From Ruminiclostridium herbifermentans (GTDB taxonomy: Bacteria > Bacillota > Clostridia > Acetivibrionales > DSM-1351), in contig NZ_CP061336.1 in the NCBI RefSeq assembly GCF_005473905.2, positions 1,410,501-1,474,500 of the forward strand: 64,000 nt of DNA, read 5' to 3'. The translations under genes and the position numbers were made by a program. Position 1 is the first letter of the stretch, and every line of letters starts with the position of its first letter. Positions 21,711-29,243 of this stretch are shown here, in pieces. The notes below the pieces were generated by a model. It was not told where the DNA came from, searched no databases, and saw only the letters and a list, made by a program, of their open reading frames with translations.

Positions 21711-21749
21711 TCGGCATAGTTTGGTAGTGTTACCGGCTATGCCGATTTT
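21711..21749. terminator. Hairpin at recombinase stop, bidirectional
   Basis: TCGGCATAG 21711-21719 pairs with CTATGCCGA 21737-21745, followed by a T tract on the plus strand and ATTTTT on the minus strand. The recombinase stop codon lies inside the stem. Confidence 0.75.
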
Positions 21750-22352
21750 TCTTTTTCAGTGGTGGATGTAGAAACCGGTGGGTCAAACTCGCCAATGCAG
21801 TTATAGACGATTTTGATACGCTGTACTCGTCTGCCATCAATGCGCTCTGCCTTGTAAACATGGATTTTTTCAACGAACTCCCGGATAATCTCCGCTGTGA
21901 GCTCCTTTATATCTGTGTACTTTCTTACCAAGGTTAGGAAGTGGTCTACACCCAGTGCGCTTTCCTTTTCTGAAGTCATAGTGGATTTTAGTTCTACCAA
22001 TCGGCTTTCAAGGTTTTGTTGCTCAGCTTCATAATTAGCAGTCATCTTGGCAAAACGCTCATCGGAAATTTTACCCTCGATGTTATCCTCATAGAGCCTT
22101 TGGATAATTTCATCTAGCTTTTTGATACGAGCCTGTGATTGCTCTAATTCTCGTTTTCCGTCACGCATACTCTTGTCAAGTTTTATCCTTGTTTTCTTGG
22201 TGACCATCTCCACAAATTCGTCCTCATGATTTCTGGCAAAAGCTGTTATCCGGCGGATACCGTCAAGGAGCAATTCCTCAACTACAACATTTCTTATTTG
22301 GTGAGAACTGCAGCCGCCTTTTATTTTACGGTAGGTAGCACACACATATAAA
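21737..22352 (-). pseudogene. Large serine recombinase, C-terminal fragment
   Basis: About 205 residues: LYVCATYRKIKGGCSSHQIR (the Cys-containing zinc-ribbon region), VVEELLLDGIRRITAFAR, a long charged coiled coil (RELEQSQARIKKLDEIIQRL), and LTAEIIREFVEKIHVYKAER, a DUF4368-type tail. This is the C-terminal half of recombinases of the TnpX/TndX type used by Tn4451- and Tn5397-like elements. The N-terminal resolvase domain with the catalytic Ser is absent: the frame runs into the IS21 end, and beyond the IS an unrelated gene follows. So the IS insertion was accompanied by a deletion. Confidence 0.85.
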
Positions 22353-22433: not shown

Positions 22434-23726
22434 ATGATTATCAAAAGTAGTATCATAACAGATTTAAATATTCAAACTGTCAAGGATCTTTATAAGTTAA
22501 AACCATTTATGGAGGACACAACATTGAAGGTTAATAAAAGCCAGATCGCAAGGGAACTTGATGTCGATAGGCGTACAGTTGATAAATACATTAATGGCTT
22601 TCATAAGGCCAAATTCAGAGAATGCGTGAATTGTATCACTGCTTACTATGACATTATTGCAGAGCTTCTATCTGATAACAGCCAGCAGATATTTTATTAC
22701 AGAAGAGTTTTATGGCAATACCTAGTAGACAATCATTCTTATGAAGGGTCTTATGTGAATTTCTGCTACTATCTAAGAAAATATCCTGAACTAGACTCAT
22801 ATTTCAAAAAAAGCAGACCTTCAAACGCAAATAACGTAACCATACGTTATGAAACAGGAATGGGTCAACAAGCACAACTAGACTGGAAAGAGTCTATACG
22901 ATTTACTCTTTCAACAGGTGAAATAATAGAAGTAAACATATTTGTATTATTGCTGTCATACTCACGTTTTAGAGTATACAGGGTATCTCTATCAAAAACA
23001 CAGGACATATTATTTTCATTCCTTGATGATGCGTTTAACACGTTTGGAGGTGTTCCAAGTGAGATTGTCACCGATAATATGAAAACAGTTATGGATGAGC
23101 CAAGAACAGAGTATACAGAAGGGAAAATAAATATAAAATTTAAGCAGTTTGCGGATGATTATGGTTTTAAGGTGCACCCTTGTATTGCAGGAAGACCAAG
23201 AACAAAAGCCAAAGTAGAAGCACCAATGAAACTACTTGATGAGATAAGAGCCTACAATGGAAAACTTGATTACAAGGAACTTAATGAGTTGGTCACACGA
23301 ATAAATAACAGAGTAAACATGCAGGTAAATCAAGGTACAGGTCGTATTCCATTAATGTATTTCAACAAGGAAAAAGCTTTCTTAGGAAGCTTACCAGCCG
23401 ATACCATAAGAAAGCCTTATCAAATAACTCCACATAAAGTAAAAGTAAATTCATCCAGCATGTTCAACCATAATGAATGCCAGTATTCTGTACCACCAGA
23501 ATACATTGGAAAAACTCTTACTTTACAAGTGTATGATGGTTACATACATGTTTATTATAACATGGAATTAATAACTATCCATACCCTTAGTAAAAAGAAA
23601 CTAAATTATTTTACAGAACACTATACTGCTATAGCAAGAAAATCGCATGCATTTAAGGAAGAAAATATAAATGAGCGGGCAAAAGAAAACTTACAGGTTA
23701 TAGGAGAAGTATATAGTTATGAATAA
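22434..23726 (+). CDS. istA: IS21 transposase IstA
   Basis: DDE transposase of IS21 elements. N-terminal helix-turn-helix (KSQIARELDVDRRTVDKYI, residues about 35-55); integrase core with Asp in QLDWKES, Asp in IVTDNMKT and Glu in AKVEAPMK; C-terminal Mu-type beta-barrel (CQYSVPPEYIGKTLTLQVYD). 430 aa, intact. AAGGAGG six bases from ATG 22434. Overlaps istB. Confidence 0.96.
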   Translation: MIIKSSIITDLNIQTVKDLYKLKPFMEDTTLKVNKSQIARELDVDRRTVDKYINGFHKAKFRECVNCITAYYDIIAELLSDNSQQIFYYRRVLWQYLVDNHSYEGSYVNFCYYLRKYPELDSYFKKSRPSNANNVTIRYETGMGQQAQLDWKESIRFTLSTGEIIEVNIFVLLLSYSRFRVYRVSLSKTQDILFSFLDDAFNTFGGVPSEIVTDNMKTVMDEPRTEYTEGKINIKFKQFADDYGFKVHPCIAGRPRTKAKVEAPMKLLDEIRAYNGKLDYKELNELVTRINNRVNMQVNQGTGRIPLMYFNKEKAFLGSLPADTIRKPYQITPHKVKVNSSSMFNHNECQYSVPPEYIGKTLTLQVYDGYIHVYYNMELITIHTLSKKKLNYFTEHYTAIARKSHAFKEENINERAKENLQVIGEVYSYE

Positions 23727-24471
23727 CAGTACATACAACCAGCTATGCCGGAACATGGAAATTCTTGGTCTTGGGCAAATGGTAATTCATCTTGATGAAA
23801 TATCTAATTTTGTGACATCCAACAATCTTTCGTTTACAGAAGGACTACTGAGACTTAGTAATTACGAAGTTGATTTTAAGGAGGCCAAAGCATCTAGATC
23901 TATGATTAAAGCAGCAGCATTTCCTTTTGTAAAGGAATTGAAAGATTATGATTTCAATTTTCAGCCGTCAGTAAATCAGCAAGAAATACAAGAACTTTGC
24001 ACGCTTGGTTTTCTTGAAAGAAATGAGAATATAGTATTTCTTGGTCCAAGTGGTGTTGGAAAGACTCATCTGGCAACATCAATAGGAATAGCTGCAGCAA
24101 AGAAACGTACTAGCACATATTTTATCAAATGTCATGATTTATTGCAGCAACTAAAGAAAGCAAAACTGGAAAACAGACTTGATGTAAGACTCAGACACTT
24201 CTGCCATTACAGACTACTTATCATTGATGAACTTGGCTACTTACCCATTGATAAAGAAGATTCTAATATGTTTTTTCAGCTTATAGATATGAGATATGAG
24301 AGAAAAAGTACCATTCTTACAACAAACATGAATTTCAACGAATGGGATGGTGTATTCTATGACGCAGTTGTAGCCAATGCAATACTTGACAGGGTATTGC
24401 ACCATGCACATGTAATATCTATATCTGGAAAGTCATACAGATTAAAGGATCATATGAAGCAAGGAGAATAG
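23719..24471 (+). CDS. istB: IS21 helper ATPase IstB
   Basis: AAA+ ATPase required with IstA for target selection, related to DnaC. Walker A GPSGVGKTHLATSIG at residues of about 110-124, Walker B LLIIDELGYLP, sensor motif TTNMNFNEW. 250 aa, intact; the start lies within the istA 3' end. Confidence 0.96.
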   Translation: MNNSTYNQLCRNMEILGLGQMVIHLDEISNFVTSNNLSFTEGLLRLSNYEVDFKEAKASRSMIKAAAFPFVKELKDYDFNFQPSVNQQEIQELCTLGFLERNENIVFLGPSGVGKTHLATSIGIAAAKKRTSTYFIKCHDLLQQLKKAKLENRLDVRLRHFCHYRLLIIDELGYLPIDKEDSNMFFQLIDMRYERKSTILTTNMNFNEWDGVFYDAVVANAILDRVLHHAHVISISGKSYRLKDHMKQGE

Positions 24472-24495: not shown

Positions 24496-24690
24496 TTATA
24501 CATTTTTCCTTGACAGTTTATATGCGTGGAGACGATAATACTTGTGCAGTTTTCTATGTTCATCTTCAACGATGCAATCTGACAGGAATAAATCAAATGT
24601 GTTCTTTGCATATTCATCAGAGTAGTATGAGTGTTGCGGGTGAAGGAGCGTTCCTTCCTTATTCATTTTTGTAAGTGGATAGTTTGCCAT
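24496..24690 (-). CDS. Small island protein, 3' end altered by IS21
   Basis: 64 aa starting MANYPLTKMNKEGTLLHPQH with AAGGAGG well placed upstream of ATG 24690. The last residues (KLSRKNV) are read from the IS21 terminal repeat, so the original C-terminus is probably lost. Short acidic/aromatic protein with no recognised domain. Last gene of the minus-strand island operon before the IS. Confidence 0.6.
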   Translation of the reverse strand: MANYPLTKMNKEGTLLHPQHSYYSDEYAKNTFDLFLSDCIVEDEHRKLHKYYRLHAYKLSRKNV

Positions 24691-24791: not shown

Positions 24792-25007
24792 TCATACTGC
24801 TTTGTCAGAAAGATAGGTATATCCAGCAGTACGACAGTATTCGGACAGATCATCGTAACCATTGATGTGAACAGTTGACTGCCCGTCAGTGACGGTATAG
24901 CGGATTTCTTTTGTTACTGTCACAGGGTCTCCGGAACGGTTACGAAGATAGAGTTTACCTTTGATACTGTTGTGACTTTTGCCATAAAGCAGGTCAATTA
25001 GCTTCAT
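24792..25007 (-). CDS. Small hypothetical island protein
   Basis: 71 aa, MKLIDLLYGKSHNSIKGKLY, ending TYLSDKAV. ATG 25007 has GGAGG eight bases upstream and overlaps the end of the preceding 126-residue gene by 14 bases, so translation is likely coupled. Predicted beta-rich with no recognised family. Transcribed with the primase gene. Confidence 0.7.
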   Translation of the reverse strand: MKLIDLLYGKSHNSIKGKLYLRNRSGDPVTVTKEIRYTVTDGQSTVHINGYDDLSEYCRTAGYTYLSDKAV

Positions 25008-25374
25008 GCTGTTTTCCTCCCTTCATATCTTGATTTTTAGTAGCAGTAGTAGCAGAACTGGTAGCAGAGTTTTTTGGTACTGCTACTGCAGAAAAGTGAG
25101 GTATATCAAGGGTTTCCAGCCGGTTGGTAGCAGTAGTAGCAGTACTGGCGAGTTTATACTCACACTCCGCATAATCTTTGAATTCTTTTATTTCTCTGTA
25201 CCAACTTTTTTGAAATTTTGCTAAGAAGTTATAAGAACTGCTACAACTGCTACCGATTGCTCTCAAAGCCTTGCACTGTGGGCATTTGGTGTGGTAGCAG
25301 TTGTGATTTTTACTGCTACCAGCACTGCTACTACTGCTACCATTTTTATAAGAACACAGTTCCGTCATAGCCAT
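24994..25374 (-). CDS. Ser/Ala/Thr-repeat protein overlapping primase end
   Basis: 126 aa from ATG 25374, preceded by GAGGG; the ATG lies inside the 3' end of the primase gene. The frame remains open upstream, but that part is primase antiframe. Contains CPQCKAL and further Cys residues (possible zinc knuckle) and a conserved-looking core FLAKFQKSWYREIKEFKDYA. The remainder is low-complexity: GSSSSSAGSS, STATTATNRL, NSATSSATTATK. These are read in different frames from the same DNA heptamer GTAGCAG, so the DNA rather than the protein seems to be conserved there. Confidence 0.65.
   Translation of the reverse strand: MAMTELCSYKNGSSSSSAGSSKNHNCYHTKCPQCKALRAIGSSCSSSYNFLAKFQKSWYREIKEFKDYAECEYKLASTATTATNRLETLDIPHFSAVAVPKNSATSSATTATKNQDMKGGKQHEAN
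25039..25342. repeat. GTAGCAG heptamer array, iteron-like
   Basis: Twelve GTAGCAG heptamers in about 300 bases, six on each strand. Three composite blocks: plus strand 25039-25070 (GTAGCAGTAGTAGCAG then CTGGTAGCAG), plus strand 25126-25149 (GGTAGCAGTAGTAGCAGTAC), and the inverted block 25311-25342. A smaller inverted pair is CTACAACTGCTACC 25241-25254 with GGTAGCAGTTGTG 25293-25305. Its position directly beside the primase-helicase gene suggests an origin or initiator-binding array. Confidence 0.7.
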
Positions 25375-27643
25375 ATTCCCTCGAAAACTGTTCTTTTGCT
25401 TCACTTGTGAGCGAATAATCCTTATAGTAGGTGTTGCCATTCTGCCGGGTAGTGATTGTAGAATAATCTGCGCCGAGGTGTGAAGCGATAGCTTCCCGGA
25501 ACTCTTTAGCAGTCTTGGCAAAGCCGTTATTGTTTTCCCTACACCAACCTTGGTAAACCTTGTAGATACGGCCTGTGGTACAGTGCTTGTTGATTTTCCC
25601 ATCAGGCCATTCACACATACACTCCTCAAAGAAGGAGACCACAGTATTGTTATCTGACATATATTTTTCTCTTGCGAGGCTTACGCTGTCTGGCTCCGAG
25701 AAACGGTAGCCATTAGTAATAACTTGCTGTAGTGCCTTTATAGTCTTAAAAACAATGCCATCACGCTCGGCATACATTTTGTCAAGGAGCGTTTTGTCCT
25801 GCTTATCCTTCGGAATTACGTTAGGGCAGCGTACTACCATAATGCGGTCATAAACCCATTTGCCATCATCACCACCGAACTTAGGTAGTCTGTTCATGCA
25901 AAACCAAAGTAGACCGTTATAAGTGAACTCAAAGGCTTGCTGTCCTTTGAACTCGGCATACAAGCTATCGCCACCGGTTATTTTCTTAAAGGTTTTCAGT
26001 TCATCCACAGAGAGAAAACTCATATCCGAGCTACCGGCAAGGCGTGTACCATAAATAGCACCGGTGCCGAATCTGGCTTCTATCTCCTTAAGGTCAATGC
26101 CGATAAAGTTCCCTTTGCCGAGCAATCGCTCCACAAGGCTCTTTAGCTGAGATTTGCCGGTATCACCATCACCTACAAGGAAAAGTGCTTTTTTCATTCG
26201 CCATCCCTTGATGTTGGAGATACACACACCGATAAATTCAAGGAGTAGTTGCTCTATGGCTTTATCGCCATTTGTGAGGGTGTGCATATATCCGTCAAAC
26301 ACTGGTGTGGGTGTTTCTCTGCCTGTCCAGCTACATGGAATTTGTATGGTGGAGAGGATGTCCGGGGAATGTGGAGCAAGAGTGACATTGTTTGCAGTAA
26401 TATGAAGCAGGCCATTGCTGAAGTTGATTAAATCCTCATTGGCGTTCAATTCCTCTTGGCTCACATAGTTAAGGTCGGTAATAATATGCTGCAAGGTTTC
26501 ACTGACTTTTCCCATTTTGACAAGTTCCTCATCATAATCCGCAATGTACTGCTTGATAATGCCCATCAGCATATTGTCGGCATAAAGTCGGTAACAGCCG
26601 TTTTCATAGACATATTTCATAAGTCCCTGTTTTCCGTTATCCCTAACAAGCACATAGCGGAGGTGTTCTCGCACATATTTTGCAAGGAGCGGAACGCTAA
26701 CATAGACCTCTCCGGTCTGCTCATTGAATTTTATAAAATACGGATGCTCCATCTTGGATTTGTGGAAGGTGCCATGACAGGCATCAATTCCAGTAGCAAT
26801 GGTAGCTTCTCTGTAATCCTCACGCTCCCATTTTTCACGATAGAGAGCAGAACTGCGAAAGATATCATCAATAGCTGCAGGGTCAGGCCCGGTGCGAAAT
26901 GCAATTAAGGCGCATAGTGCGGCATCCGCTTCTGACTGTGAGCCATACTCAGAGATATCGCCATCATCATATAGCTTTTTAAATTTTTCTCCGTTTTTCT
27001 GTTTACGGAGATTGCAGACAATATCAAATCCTGCTCGGTCACCGTCACGCTTTTCACTGTATGTTATCTTCTCGGTCTTTCGCATATTTTTATCAAGGGT
27101 GGTAAGAACTGCGGCTGTGCTTTCTCTAAGAGGCTCATTTAAAATCACATCTCCTGTGAAAGCTGCAAATCGGTTTGTTAGGCCACCTACATACAATTCC
27201 AGGTGATTATTTGGATTTTTCATATAGTAGGCTTTATCAAGTCTGAGATTGCCGTTCTTATCTGCATAAGTGGGAAGTTTGTCTAAATCGCATTTGCCAT
27301 AAATATGGATACCGCCTCCGCTGACGGAACGCTCAGTATAGGAGTTGAATCGATTAAGCAACATCTCTACAAACGGGTCTGTAAGAGGAATGTGGTCTAT
27401 GTCAAGGAAGAAGTGGCCTTTCGGTATCACAAAGCCAATACCGGCAGCGCTCTGCTTTGTATTAGCAGTGACTGCTTCATCGTAAGTTACCCATGTGTGG
27501 CGGTACTTTCCATTAGTGCCTGTCGCACCACCACCGGCAGCAAAGGGTATTTTGTTGATCCGGTCACCGTCAATTTCCTTGCGCCAGAGAAACCATATCT
27601 TCATATCCATTAGTTCCTGCATTGCGTTCGCCGTCTCGTCCAC
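25346..27643 (-). CDS. Primase-helicase of plasmid/phage type
   Basis: Replication initiator of an integrative element. The N-terminal half (residues 1-290) has GGATGTNGKYRHTWVTYDEA and GIGFVIPKGHFFLDIDHIPL with a DxD pair, plus SVSGGGIHIYGK, the pattern of primase-polymerase-like domains. The C-terminal half is a D5/P4-type SF3 helicase with Walker A GDGDTGKS near residues 488-495, FIGIDLKEIEARFGTGAIYG, and the sensor FTYNGLLWFCMNRLPKF. 765 aa, intact. GTG 27643 is used because GGAG lies five bases upstream; ATG 27610 is possible. Followed by the gene carrying the iteron-like array. Confidence 0.88.
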   Translation of the reverse strand: MDETANAMQELMDMKIWFLWRKEIDGDRINKIPFAAGGGATGTNGKYRHTWVTYDEAVTANTKQSAAGIGFVIPKGHFFLDIDHIPLTDPFVEMLLNRFNSYTERSVSGGGIHIYGKCDLDKLPTYADKNGNLRLDKAYYMKNPNNHLELYVGGLTNRFAAFTGDVILNEPLRESTAAVLTTLDKNMRKTEKITYSEKRDGDRAGFDIVCNLRKQKNGEKFKKLYDDGDISEYGSQSEADAALCALIAFRTGPDPAAIDDIFRSSALYREKWEREDYREATIATGIDACHGTFHKSKMEHPYFIKFNEQTGEVYVSVPLLAKYVREHLRYVLVRDNGKQGLMKYVYENGCYRLYADNMLMGIIKQYIADYDEELVKMGKVSETLQHIITDLNYVSQEELNANEDLINFSNGLLHITANNVTLAPHSPDILSTIQIPCSWTGRETPTPVFDGYMHTLTNGDKAIEQLLLEFIGVCISNIKGWRMKKALFLVGDGDTGKSQLKSLVERLLGKGNFIGIDLKEIEARFGTGAIYGTRLAGSSDMSFLSVDELKTFKKITGGDSLYAEFKGQQAFEFTYNGLLWFCMNRLPKFGGDDGKWVYDRIMVVRCPNVIPKDKQDKTLLDKMYAERDGIVFKTIKALQQVITNGYRFSEPDSVSLAREKYMSDNNTVVSFFEECMCEWPDGKINKHCTTGRIYKVYQGWCRENNNGFAKTAKEFREAIASHLGADYSTITTRQNGNTYYKDYSLTSEAKEQFSREYGYDGTVFL

Positions 27644-27847: not shown

Positions 27848-28148
27848 TTACTCTTTCCTCCTTATCTTGATATTTGTTTTGGTTTCTACATCCACCATCC
27901 GTTACCGTTCCTAAGGTAGCCACCTGTTCGTGGTCTCCTCGTCTTCGATTGCAGTAGAGGCGCTCCGGTCTTCACCATCTTAGCGGCAACACTGCAAAAG
28001 TATCTCTTGCGGGTGGACTATTCAGTTATCAAGGAACAGAAATTAACGGGTTCTATAATTTGCTCTTGTATTTAATGTAATTGTACTGTATGATGTAACG
28101 GAAGGCAAAAATCTAAATGTTACTCTTAGTGTTACGGAGGTGTCATTC
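27848..28148. other. Divergent intergenic region in island
   Basis: GC-richer than host intergenic DNA. GGTTTCTACATCCACCA 27881-27897 is a perfect 17-base inverted copy of 21760-21776 in the recombinase 3' end. CTATTCAGTTATCAAGGAAC near 28019 resembles spacer sequence common next to Firmicute rRNA genes; a promoter for the rightward gene lies at 28066. Confidence 0.5.
28066..28094 (+). promoter_or_regulatory. Promoter of island accessory gene
   Basis: TTGTAT, 17-base spacer, TATGAT at 28089-28094, 55 bases before the start codon. GTTAC-containing repeats downstream may be operator sites. Confidence 0.55.
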
Positions 28149-29243
28149 ATGCCATACGATGGAATGGGTAATTATATAGAATCAAAAGCCGATAACACTT
28201 CTGATGTCATCGGCTTTGGGGATGTTGGCGGTATCGGTCAGTTGATATATCACACATTCAGGTTTCGAGATTATGAGTTTGAGGAAGGCGCCGGTGAATC
28301 ATGGGACTTAAAACCGATTGTCTACAAAGGCATGGAGCCGGATTTGGATAAGTCAAACGGATTCTCCGGGAAGGAACTATTCCGGGAGGTATATAATCTG
28401 GGCAGAAAAATAAACGAATTCTCGGAAGAAAAGCCGTATGTTGATTTGATTATTGAATTTTGTAAGGATGTTGCCCATCCGTACTATATAGACACTGTGT
28501 ATTCCTTAATGACAGATAAGCAGTTTGATATTGCAGATGATGGTGAAATGCTTGAGAGGGAGTCTTTGTTCAGTCTCTCCACTTTTATGCATGACTTGGA
28601 AAGGTTCTATACAGCCACACAGTTCTATTTTGCGTTGAAAAAAGTATGTGCCGGTGACGGAGACGATACTTTTGATTTAGCACAAGAAGGCAAGTTCTTT
28701 GAAGGTCTGCCATTCTTTGAAAAATATAAGCATGAAGAAAACTTCCAAGAATATAAGCTTGAAAAAGGAGAAATCACTCCGCAGCAGTTGCTGCATGAAA
28801 TGATTGCAGAGCAGAAAAAGACAAAACATCGAGAGCAAAAAGAGGTTACATGGTTTGCTCGTGAGCCATTCGATTATTATGAAGAGCTACGTGAGCAGTT
28901 AATGGATATGATACCGGATTTTCACATGAGATTAAAAATCAATCCACGGAATAATCAAGTGGTCTTTGCTGCCGATGTTCATTCTGTCTTCGATATTTGT
29001 TGGTATACACTTGCTCGTATGCTTGTTGATTTTGGTCCACCGGAAGAAGGCGGTCGAATAAGGGAACTGAACGAAGGTGCGATCATTACCTGCCTTCACT
29101 GTGCAGAAGCCTTCATTCGTGATAACAACCGCCAGCTTTACTGCAAAAAAGTCGAATGCCAAAGGGCACATAACGCTGCAAGGCAACGGAAATATCGCGC
29201 CAATAAAAAGTTAGCAGAAACAAAAGCTAAGAATAAGAAATAA
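28149..29243 (+). CDS. Island accessory protein with C-terminal Cys cluster
   Basis: Function unknown; similar proteins accompany clostridial integrative elements. ATG 28149 has GGAGG eight bases upstream (in-frame GTG 28140 rejected). 364 aa, acidic, mostly helical body; the C-terminus has CLHCAEAFIRDNNRQLYC with a further Cys in KKVECQ, then the basic tail RAHNAARQRKYRANKKLAET. The C-x2-C and C-x4-C spacing with a basic helix resembles a CGNR-like zinc finger, suggesting nucleic acid binding. Transcribed away from the primase operon with its own promoter. Confidence 0.75.
   Translation: MPYDGMGNYIESKADNTSDVIGFGDVGGIGQLIYHTFRFRDYEFEEGAGESWDLKPIVYKGMEPDLDKSNGFSGKELFREVYNLGRKINEFSEEKPYVDLIIEFCKDVAHPYYIDTVYSLMTDKQFDIADDGEMLERESLFSLSTFMHDLERFYTATQFYFALKKVCAGDGDDTFDLAQEGKFFEGLPFFEKYKHEENFQEYKLEKGEITPQQLLHEMIAEQKKTKHREQKEVTWFAREPFDYYEELREQLMDMIPDFHMRLKINPRNNQVVFAADVHSVFDICWYTLARMLVDFGPPEEGGRIRELNEGAIITCLHCAEAFIRDNNRQLYCKKVECQRAHNAARQRKYRANKKLAETKAKNKK

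Follow-up and report, generated by a model that had tools for sequence, protein, structure and literature searches.

A mirrored array of twelve heptamers as the probable replication origin of a PICI-like element in Ruminiclostridium herbifermentans

An array of twelve GTAGCAG heptamers lies directly behind the gene of a P4/D5-type primase-helicase in the window, the 64,000-nucleotide stretch of Ruminiclostridium herbifermentans DNA that was analysed. With a probability of about 0.87, this array is the origin from which an integrated and partly decayed element of the PICI-like (phage-satellite) type is replicated, the sites being bound by the winged helix of the primase and the word acting as an exchangeable password. 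The elements of this reading that come from the sequence are the geometry of the array, its AT-rich centre, its conservation, the dialects of its word, the covariation of the word with the winged helix and one cassette exchange. The first-pass annotation had already suggested iteron-type sites for replication initiation, and this suggestion is supported by the position 3' of the primase, the mirrored halves and the AT-rich centre. Further backing comes from the conservation beside orthologous primases, the winged-helix covariation and the layout given for PICI and SaPI origins in passages of PMC6092414 and PMC7581432. Origins that lie 3' of the initiator and have an AT-rich region between two sets of iterons are a known type. 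As far as the literature search shows, the exactness of the 6+6 mirror, the dialects of the word and the exchange of a cassette are new, and a prior description is possible; neither a mirrored 6+6 array nor a winged-helix/array cassette was found in the titles and abstract openings searched, a scope outside which most subscription papers lie.

Organization of the heptamer array

Word counting located twelve exact copies of GTAGCAG within 25040-25340, six on each strand, which confirmed the number and strands given in the first-pass annotation (Table 1). The heptamer occurred 23 times in the whole window, compared with a mean of 5.8 and a maximum of 12 in 100 shuffles. About 0.03 copies would be expected from the shuffles in 301 bp, where 12 were found. 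The sites form an exact mirror of six plus six, and the starts and ends of the paired sites gave the same sum, 50380, for all six pairs (25040+25340, 25049+25331, 25061+25319, 25086+25294, 25127+25253 and 25136+25244). When six plus six sites were placed at random in 301 bp, no more than four mirrored pairs were obtained in 20,000 trials. The layout proposed earlier, three composite blocks, one of them inverted, with an extra inverted pair, was replaced by this single 6+6 mirror. The array is situated immediately 3' of the initiator gene, the first heptamer starting at the sixth base past the primase stop codon. The AT content of the centre exceeded that of the halves (52.4%) and of the primase gene (55.5%). 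In addition, the two arms of the array are partly complementary (93% over 28 nt and 73% over 40 nt), and the CAAGGGTTT in the spacer of half B sits in an inverted repeat.

Table 1. Features of the array and of the surrounding element, in window positions
Feature	Position	Strand	Basis or remark
P4/D5-type primase-polymerase with SF3 helicase, 765 aa, probable initiator	25346..27643	-	Pfam, TIGR01613, phrog_1829
Winged-helix code, residues 666-755, putative word reader	25379..25648	-	AlphaFold2 model and covariation
Wing code, residues 727-745, segment tied most strongly to the word	25409..25465	-	Same-word effect
Half-array A, primase-proximal	25238..25340		Start-to-start spacing 9/12/19/47/9
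Sites of half A	25334-25340(-), 25325-25331(-), 25313-25319(-), 25294-25300(+), 25247-25253(-), 25238-25244(-)		
Spacer of half A, 40 bp	25254..25293		With CAAGGCTTT motif
AT-rich centre, 95 bp, candidate melting region	25143..25237		69.5% AT
Half-array B, exact mirror of A	25040..25142		Same spacing, 9/12/19/47/9
Sites of half B	25040-25046(+), 25049-25055(+), 25061-25067(+), 25080-25086(-), 25127-25133(+), 25136-25142(+)		
Spacer of half B, 40 bp	25087..25126		With CAAGGGTTT; motif reversed in direction relative to half A
Open frame over the array, judged spurious	24994..25374	-	Not conserved
Excisionase-like (Xis) small protein, 58 aa	27671..27847	-	Named from position and helix-turn-helix look; upstream of the primase, also in many relatives
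Opposite-strand gene, present in many relatives	28140..29243	+	Without Pfam match at E 0.1
Truncated copy of a Cys-rich protein of about 101 aa ('Zn-ribbon' label)	24496..24690	-	76% identity over 54 aa
IS21-type genes IstA and IstB, interrupting the element	22434..24471	+	
Serine integrase C-terminal fragment (DUF4368)	21737..22351	-	88% over 203 aa to the L041 integrase

Conservation of the array and dialects of its word

Named genomes contributed 57 related loci, viral contigs two partly overlapping sets of 20 and 13, and further genomes the remainder; by their record titles, most belong to Clostridia or other Bacillota. Scanning viral sequences with the primases of L032 and L037 as queries gave no yield, and the family search around G284 gave 1 of 21, a locus already known. 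A search for the heptamer beside orthologous primases, which the first-pass annotation had proposed, showed that the array is conserved there, often with another word. In L001 and L003, the twelve site positions were the same as in the window to the base, and L007, L008 and L041 differed from it by one base, in the centre. The words GTGACAG, GTGGCAG, GTGGTCG, GTGTAGG, GTGATAG, CTGATAG, TTTGTAG and GTGGAAG stood at the same place in other relatives, not always at every site. Orthologues that keep the protein and lack the heptamers had been named earlier as evidence against the iteron reading. Such a locus was literally found in L002, whose primase is 86% identical and has no GTAGCAG near it; at the same place, L002 carries a mirrored twelve-site GTGACAG array, which strengthens the iteron reading.

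When mirrored pairs were searched for with no word given beforehand, 37 of 66 loci had three or more exact pairs that shared one word, and the shuffles (30 per locus) had at most two. These 66 loci count the window twice (WIN and L078), include some other duplicates and leave out loci below 40% identity, matches ending before residue 640 and L118, which was too short. A twelve-site template, with at most 11 mismatches allowed over the 12 sites, fitted 37 of the 45 loci to which the analyst had assigned a word, and all six mirror sums were identical in 20 of the 45. Typical spacings within a half were 9/12/19/47/9 in the GTAGCAG elements and 9/11/20/45-47/9 in the GTGACAG elements, the two halves matching in both; the first spacing in L036 was 19 in both halves. 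The length of the centre ranged from 76 to 111 bp across the fitted loci. In all 37 fitted loci, the centre was richer in AT than the final 1.5 kb of the primase gene, and in 36 of the 37 it was richer than the halves, with means of 69.6% for the centre, 52.6% for the halves and 52.0% for the end of the primase gene.

In both halves, the spacer that separates site 4 from site 5 contains a CAAGGNTTT-like motif, often within a loose palindrome. With a relaxed pattern, the motif was found in both spacers of 27 of the 37 fitted loci, and it is perhaps the site of a second protein. The centre itself is asymmetric: 27 of the 37 fitted loci, in several dialects, have AACTTCT beside the half that is nearer to the primase. 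This one-sided sequence in the AT-rich centre hints at polarity.

A clear array was not found in several relatives, such as L018/L059/L114, L020, L031, L086 and L109, and the array of L019 was asymmetric. In L021 and L022, the outer blocks 3' of the primase appear reversed relative to the inner pair, which makes their layout an inverted variant. L031 and L020, where no array was found, have a primase match that stops early, at residues 690 and 742, and that is overlapped or directly adjoined by the following gene (capsid, integrase); the C-terminal end and the array may have been lost together. Some deviant sites were matched across the mirror, namely sites 4 and 9 of L030 (both ATGTAGG) and sites 2 and 11 of L026 (both GTGAATG), and others were without such a match (sites 5 and 8 of L030, sites 3 and 10 of L026).

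Among 60 distant D5-type loci, a set without duplicates, L170 (short 3' end) and nine close-family members or repeats, the template was clear in 1-3 and weak in 10, compared with 0 of 60 for control stretches inside genes. A universal twelve-site template for all D5-type initiators was unsupported, being clear in only these 1-3 loci. One locus, L092, with the word TCGCAAG, possessed an exact mirror whose six sums were all 264. Its initiator is 29% identical over the aligned helicase part, so the 6+6 scaffold may be old.

The primase-helicase and the segment that tracks the word

The primase matched the Pfam families NrS1-pol HBD, DUF5906, D5_N and, at its C-terminus, Pox_D5, and also TIGR01613 and phrog_1829. 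The hallmarks of D5/P4-family SF3 proteins (D5_N, SF3 core and C-terminal Pox_D5) were all present. The domain searches agree with the earlier statement that a primase-SF3 helicase adjoins the array, and assign it to the P4/D5 type. The nearest solved chain was 7OLA, the SaPI5 primase-helicase (E 4.9e-82, profile positions 3-729), which also ranked first by fold. Only the secondary structure of the winged helix was used from the AlphaFold2 model, which had a pTM of 0.54 and low confidence at residues 516-575. The predicted winged helix consists of helices 667-675, 690-704 and 712-723 and the hairpin strands 731-734 and 737-740. In the model, the hairpin 731-740 carries residues 732 and 736-739, the helix 690-704 contains residue 698, and the loop that precedes this helix contains residue 687.

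Covariation was examined in 29 non-redundant primases as the effect of sharing a word on identity, given the identity of the core, with 2000 permutations, which model ancestry only in part. The effect was +0.104 for the winged helix, and within it +0.074 for helix 1, +0.130 for the loop and helix 2, and +0.220 for the wing, each reached in 0 of 2000 permutations. No effect was seen for the PrimPol domain (-0.009), the SF3 parts (+0.006 and +0.009) and helix 3 (+0.005), and the value for the HBD was +0.020 (203 of 2000). Residues 301-455 showed a weak effect of +0.038 (7 of 2000), which became +0.028 (195 of 2000) after thinning to 23 taxa. In the thinned set, from which L061, L106, L115, L038, L016 and L037 were also dropped, the effect was +0.128 (0 of 2000) for the winged helix and +0.26 for the wing. 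At core identities of 0.80-0.90, the winged helix was 0.75 identical between primases with the same word and 0.59 identical between those with different words, whereas the other domains were near equal. Given the overall similarity of the primases, the word thus tracks the C-terminal winged helix, and above all its wing, with a weak signal at most elsewhere.

A scan of all columns, limited to loci with an assigned word and to proteins less than 95% alike that had 350 or more aligned residues, gave N737 as the top column, with this residue present in 12 of 12 GTAGCAG proteins and in 1 of 17 others. Eight of the ten columns linked most strongly to the word fell in the C-terminal domain (687, 698, 732, 736-739 and 756). 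Among the top 40, only 9 fell in residues 660-755 and 12 in residues 301-455.

All 22 pairs with a core identity of at least 0.85 were also compared, 11 with the same word and 11 with different words; as sequences recur in more than one pair, the pairs are not independent. For the wing, 28 of 209 residues differed in the same-word pairs and 135 of 209 in the different-word pairs. The corresponding numbers were 30 and 95 of 242 for the loop and helix 2, 38 and 67 of 242 for helix 3, and 73 and 70 of 891 for residues 560-640. Silent change in helix 3 was no lower than in its neighbours. Helix 3 lies between two covarying segments and hardly covaries itself, which, together with the level of silent change, argues against mere linkage. 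Simple linkage, the code of the winged helix being adjacent to the array, was accordingly disfavoured as the whole cause of the covariation, and it could be responsible for a part of it.

Exchange of the winged helix and array as a cassette

The cores of the primases of L025 (GTGGCAG) and L028 (CTGATAG) are 94% identical. The identity of their DNA was 86-100% up to about -270 before the primase end, fell to 30-76% between this point and about +360, and rose to 76-96% further downstream. Further upstream, in the stretch covered by L025, the identity was 85-97% with one gap near -1500. The winged-helix code and the array therefore can move as one cassette of about 0.6 kb, with L025/L028 as the one clear case. 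Similar drops, starting from about -400, were observed in L002/L003, L036/window and L011/L012. Both edges are visible in the L025/L028 pair only, because the downstream DNA differs in the other pairs. Mixed words were present in L028 and L026, so drift may play a part as well as exchange.

The element and its decay

The gene order in many relatives was the opposite-strand gene, the Xis-like gene, the primase, the array, a Cys-rich small protein, the major capsid gene and the integrase. The putative xis gene, the primase and the array of the window follow this common order and point in the same direction, an arrangement typical of PICIs. The full Cys-rich protein sits 3' of the array in many relatives. 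The integrase was of the serine type in L041 and of the tyrosine type in L013, and only a fragment remains in the window. With regard to a divergent master repressor, another feature of PICIs, the opposite-strand gene of the window had no Pfam match, and opposite-strand ORFs of L060 and L106 looked like HTH proteins by eye. A Phage_capsid match was obtained in Pfam for ORFs of all five relatives tested (L041, L009, L013, L060 and L036). Of the 48 loci with at least 2 kb of sequence past the primase, 36 had a capsid gene by tblastn no more than 2.5 kb beyond the array.

The copy in the window is decayed, with the IS21 genes lying between the truncated Cys-rich gene and the integrase fragment, and a capsid gene was not found in it. 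As it has neither a capsid gene nor an intact integrase, this copy may no longer move. A search for an empty site in neighbours within the genus found similarity no further than the upstream gene, up to 21395 at most, and thus did not locate the ends of the element.

L041:4539-12164 and related loci are small integrated elements of about 7-8 kb that encode a primase, an integrase and a single major capsid protein. The interval between primase and integrase contained no ORF of the size of a portal, protease or terminase gene in L041, L002 and L009. These small elements are possibly minimal capsid-encoding satellites. Moreover, eight initiators of the TIGR01613 type were present in one genome, G009 (L079, L134 and others); four of them were 741 aa long and one was 746 aa long.

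Proposed function and alternative explanations

In the proposed mechanism, the C-terminal winged helix of the neighbouring primase-helicase would bind the heptamers. The count of six sites per half suggests that each half loads one SF3 hexamer, with one site per subunit. The two hexamers would face each other across the AT-rich centre and melt it, and copying of the excised element would start there, presumably in both directions, with the PrimPol domain as the primer-making part. A change of the array together with the winged-helix code may let relatives keep their replication control separate, which is a plausible reason for the dialects. A more specific version is a modular origin code, in which the 6+6 mirror is fixed, each site serves one subunit of two facing hexamers, and the word is exchanged together with the wing and the loop/helix 2; we consider the chances of this version to be evenly balanced.

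The repeats could also be low-complexity coding sequence, that is, Ser/Ala/Thr runs of a small gene, and one frame of 126 aa is indeed open over the array in the window. However, a search of six frames found a frame open through 310 bp over the array in only 8 of 35 loci (window counted), in differing frames and strands. The frame was broken in the close relatives L016 (92% primase identity) and L003 (86%), which kept the sites, and other words stand at the same positions in relatives. The frame of the window is probably open because spacings of 9 and 12 keep the word in a reading that lacks stop codons. The small gene in which the heptamers had earlier been placed is thus without conservation, its frame being broken or moved in most relatives examined. 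A coding role of the array was rejected, since the sites persist and the frame does not, and these comparisons leave such an explanation practically no weight. Plasmid iterons often serve control as well as initiation, and the array sits between the primase and the downstream genes, so that the primase or another element protein could bind the sites mainly to repress or limit copying or transcription (handcuffing or copy control), with the start elsewhere. This is unlikely, as the mirrored halves and the centre, richer in AT than the gene end in every fitted locus and than the halves in all but one, match described initiation sites.

Somewhat less likely still is that the heptamers are single-strand template sites at which the PrimPol/HBD part starts, instead of duplex sites of the winged helix. 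GTG or GTA is contained in most of the words, the pRN1 primase is described as starting at GTG (PMC4234260), and CCPol-MP of SCCmec is described as able to prime at iterons (PMC7581432). In the covariation analysis, however, the word was not clearly tracked by the PrimPol domain or the HBD, and the rigid spacing and mirror order fit duplex binding. The partial complementarity of the mirrored arms would also suit a large stem-loop or cruciform, as proposed for pRN1, in which the words repeat only through the pairing of the arms. A hairpin has no need of the direct repeats of the word within each half, the spacers of the two halves are only loosely alike and the centre varies in length, which makes this explanation very improbable. 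The origin bound by the winged helix is the preferred reading.

If this holds, the family offers a sequence-level test bed for the counting of SF3 helicases onto an origin, where six sites per half suggest one per subunit, and for the evolution of specificity between initiator and origin. The dialects are matched to readers that differ mainly in the wing and helix 2, and a recognition code for D5-type winged helices might thus be readable from nature. If the modular code is true, a natural library of matched reader/word pairs is ready for use, and a password could be changed by swapping a cassette of about 0.6 kb. The dialects also suggest a way for related satellites to coexist in one host, none of them triggering the replication of another.

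Comparison with known systems

The proposed origin was compared with several described systems. ORF904 of pRN1 likewise combines PrimPol, SF3 helicase and winged helix in one protein with an origin just 3' of the gene, but in the account of PMC4234260 that origin is a stem-loop without iterons. The alpha protein of phage P4 is described as a primase-helicase with a winged helix that binds origin repeats (PMC4234260, citing earlier work). By this description the two are alike, whereas alpha has a Toprim-type primase (PMC4234260) and the window protein has an NrS-1/AEP-type N-terminus. In SCCmec, Cch2 is a D5-type helicase whose isolated C-terminal domain binds iterons just downstream of its own gene, as in our proposal, but these were reported there as three 5-nt AAGTG iterons and not as a mirror of six (PMC7581432). 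For cf-PICI, the gene list in PMC10690885 names a major capsid protein, protease, portal, connectors and terminases; the relatives of the window share the major capsid gene, and L041, L002 and L009 differ in the interval between primase and integrase, as given above.

The closest likeness was to the PICI and SaPI origins. The PICI origins are described as lying just 3' of the initiator, with two iteron sets flanking an AT-rich region (PMC6092414), and the SaPI Rep as reading its origin through its C-terminal domain, apparently bound as two hexamers (PMC7581432). The window array has the same position and layout, and its primase has the SaPI5 enzyme as its nearest solved structure. Set beside the SaPI and E. 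coli PICI by description, the window family differs in its 6+6 mirror, which is exact in 20 of 45 loci and near in most other fits, and in the capsid gene that follows the array in three quarters of the loci with enough sequence (36 of 48). Furthermore, its members are mostly recorded as Clostridia or other Bacillota, and its reader and array can be exchanged together as a cassette.
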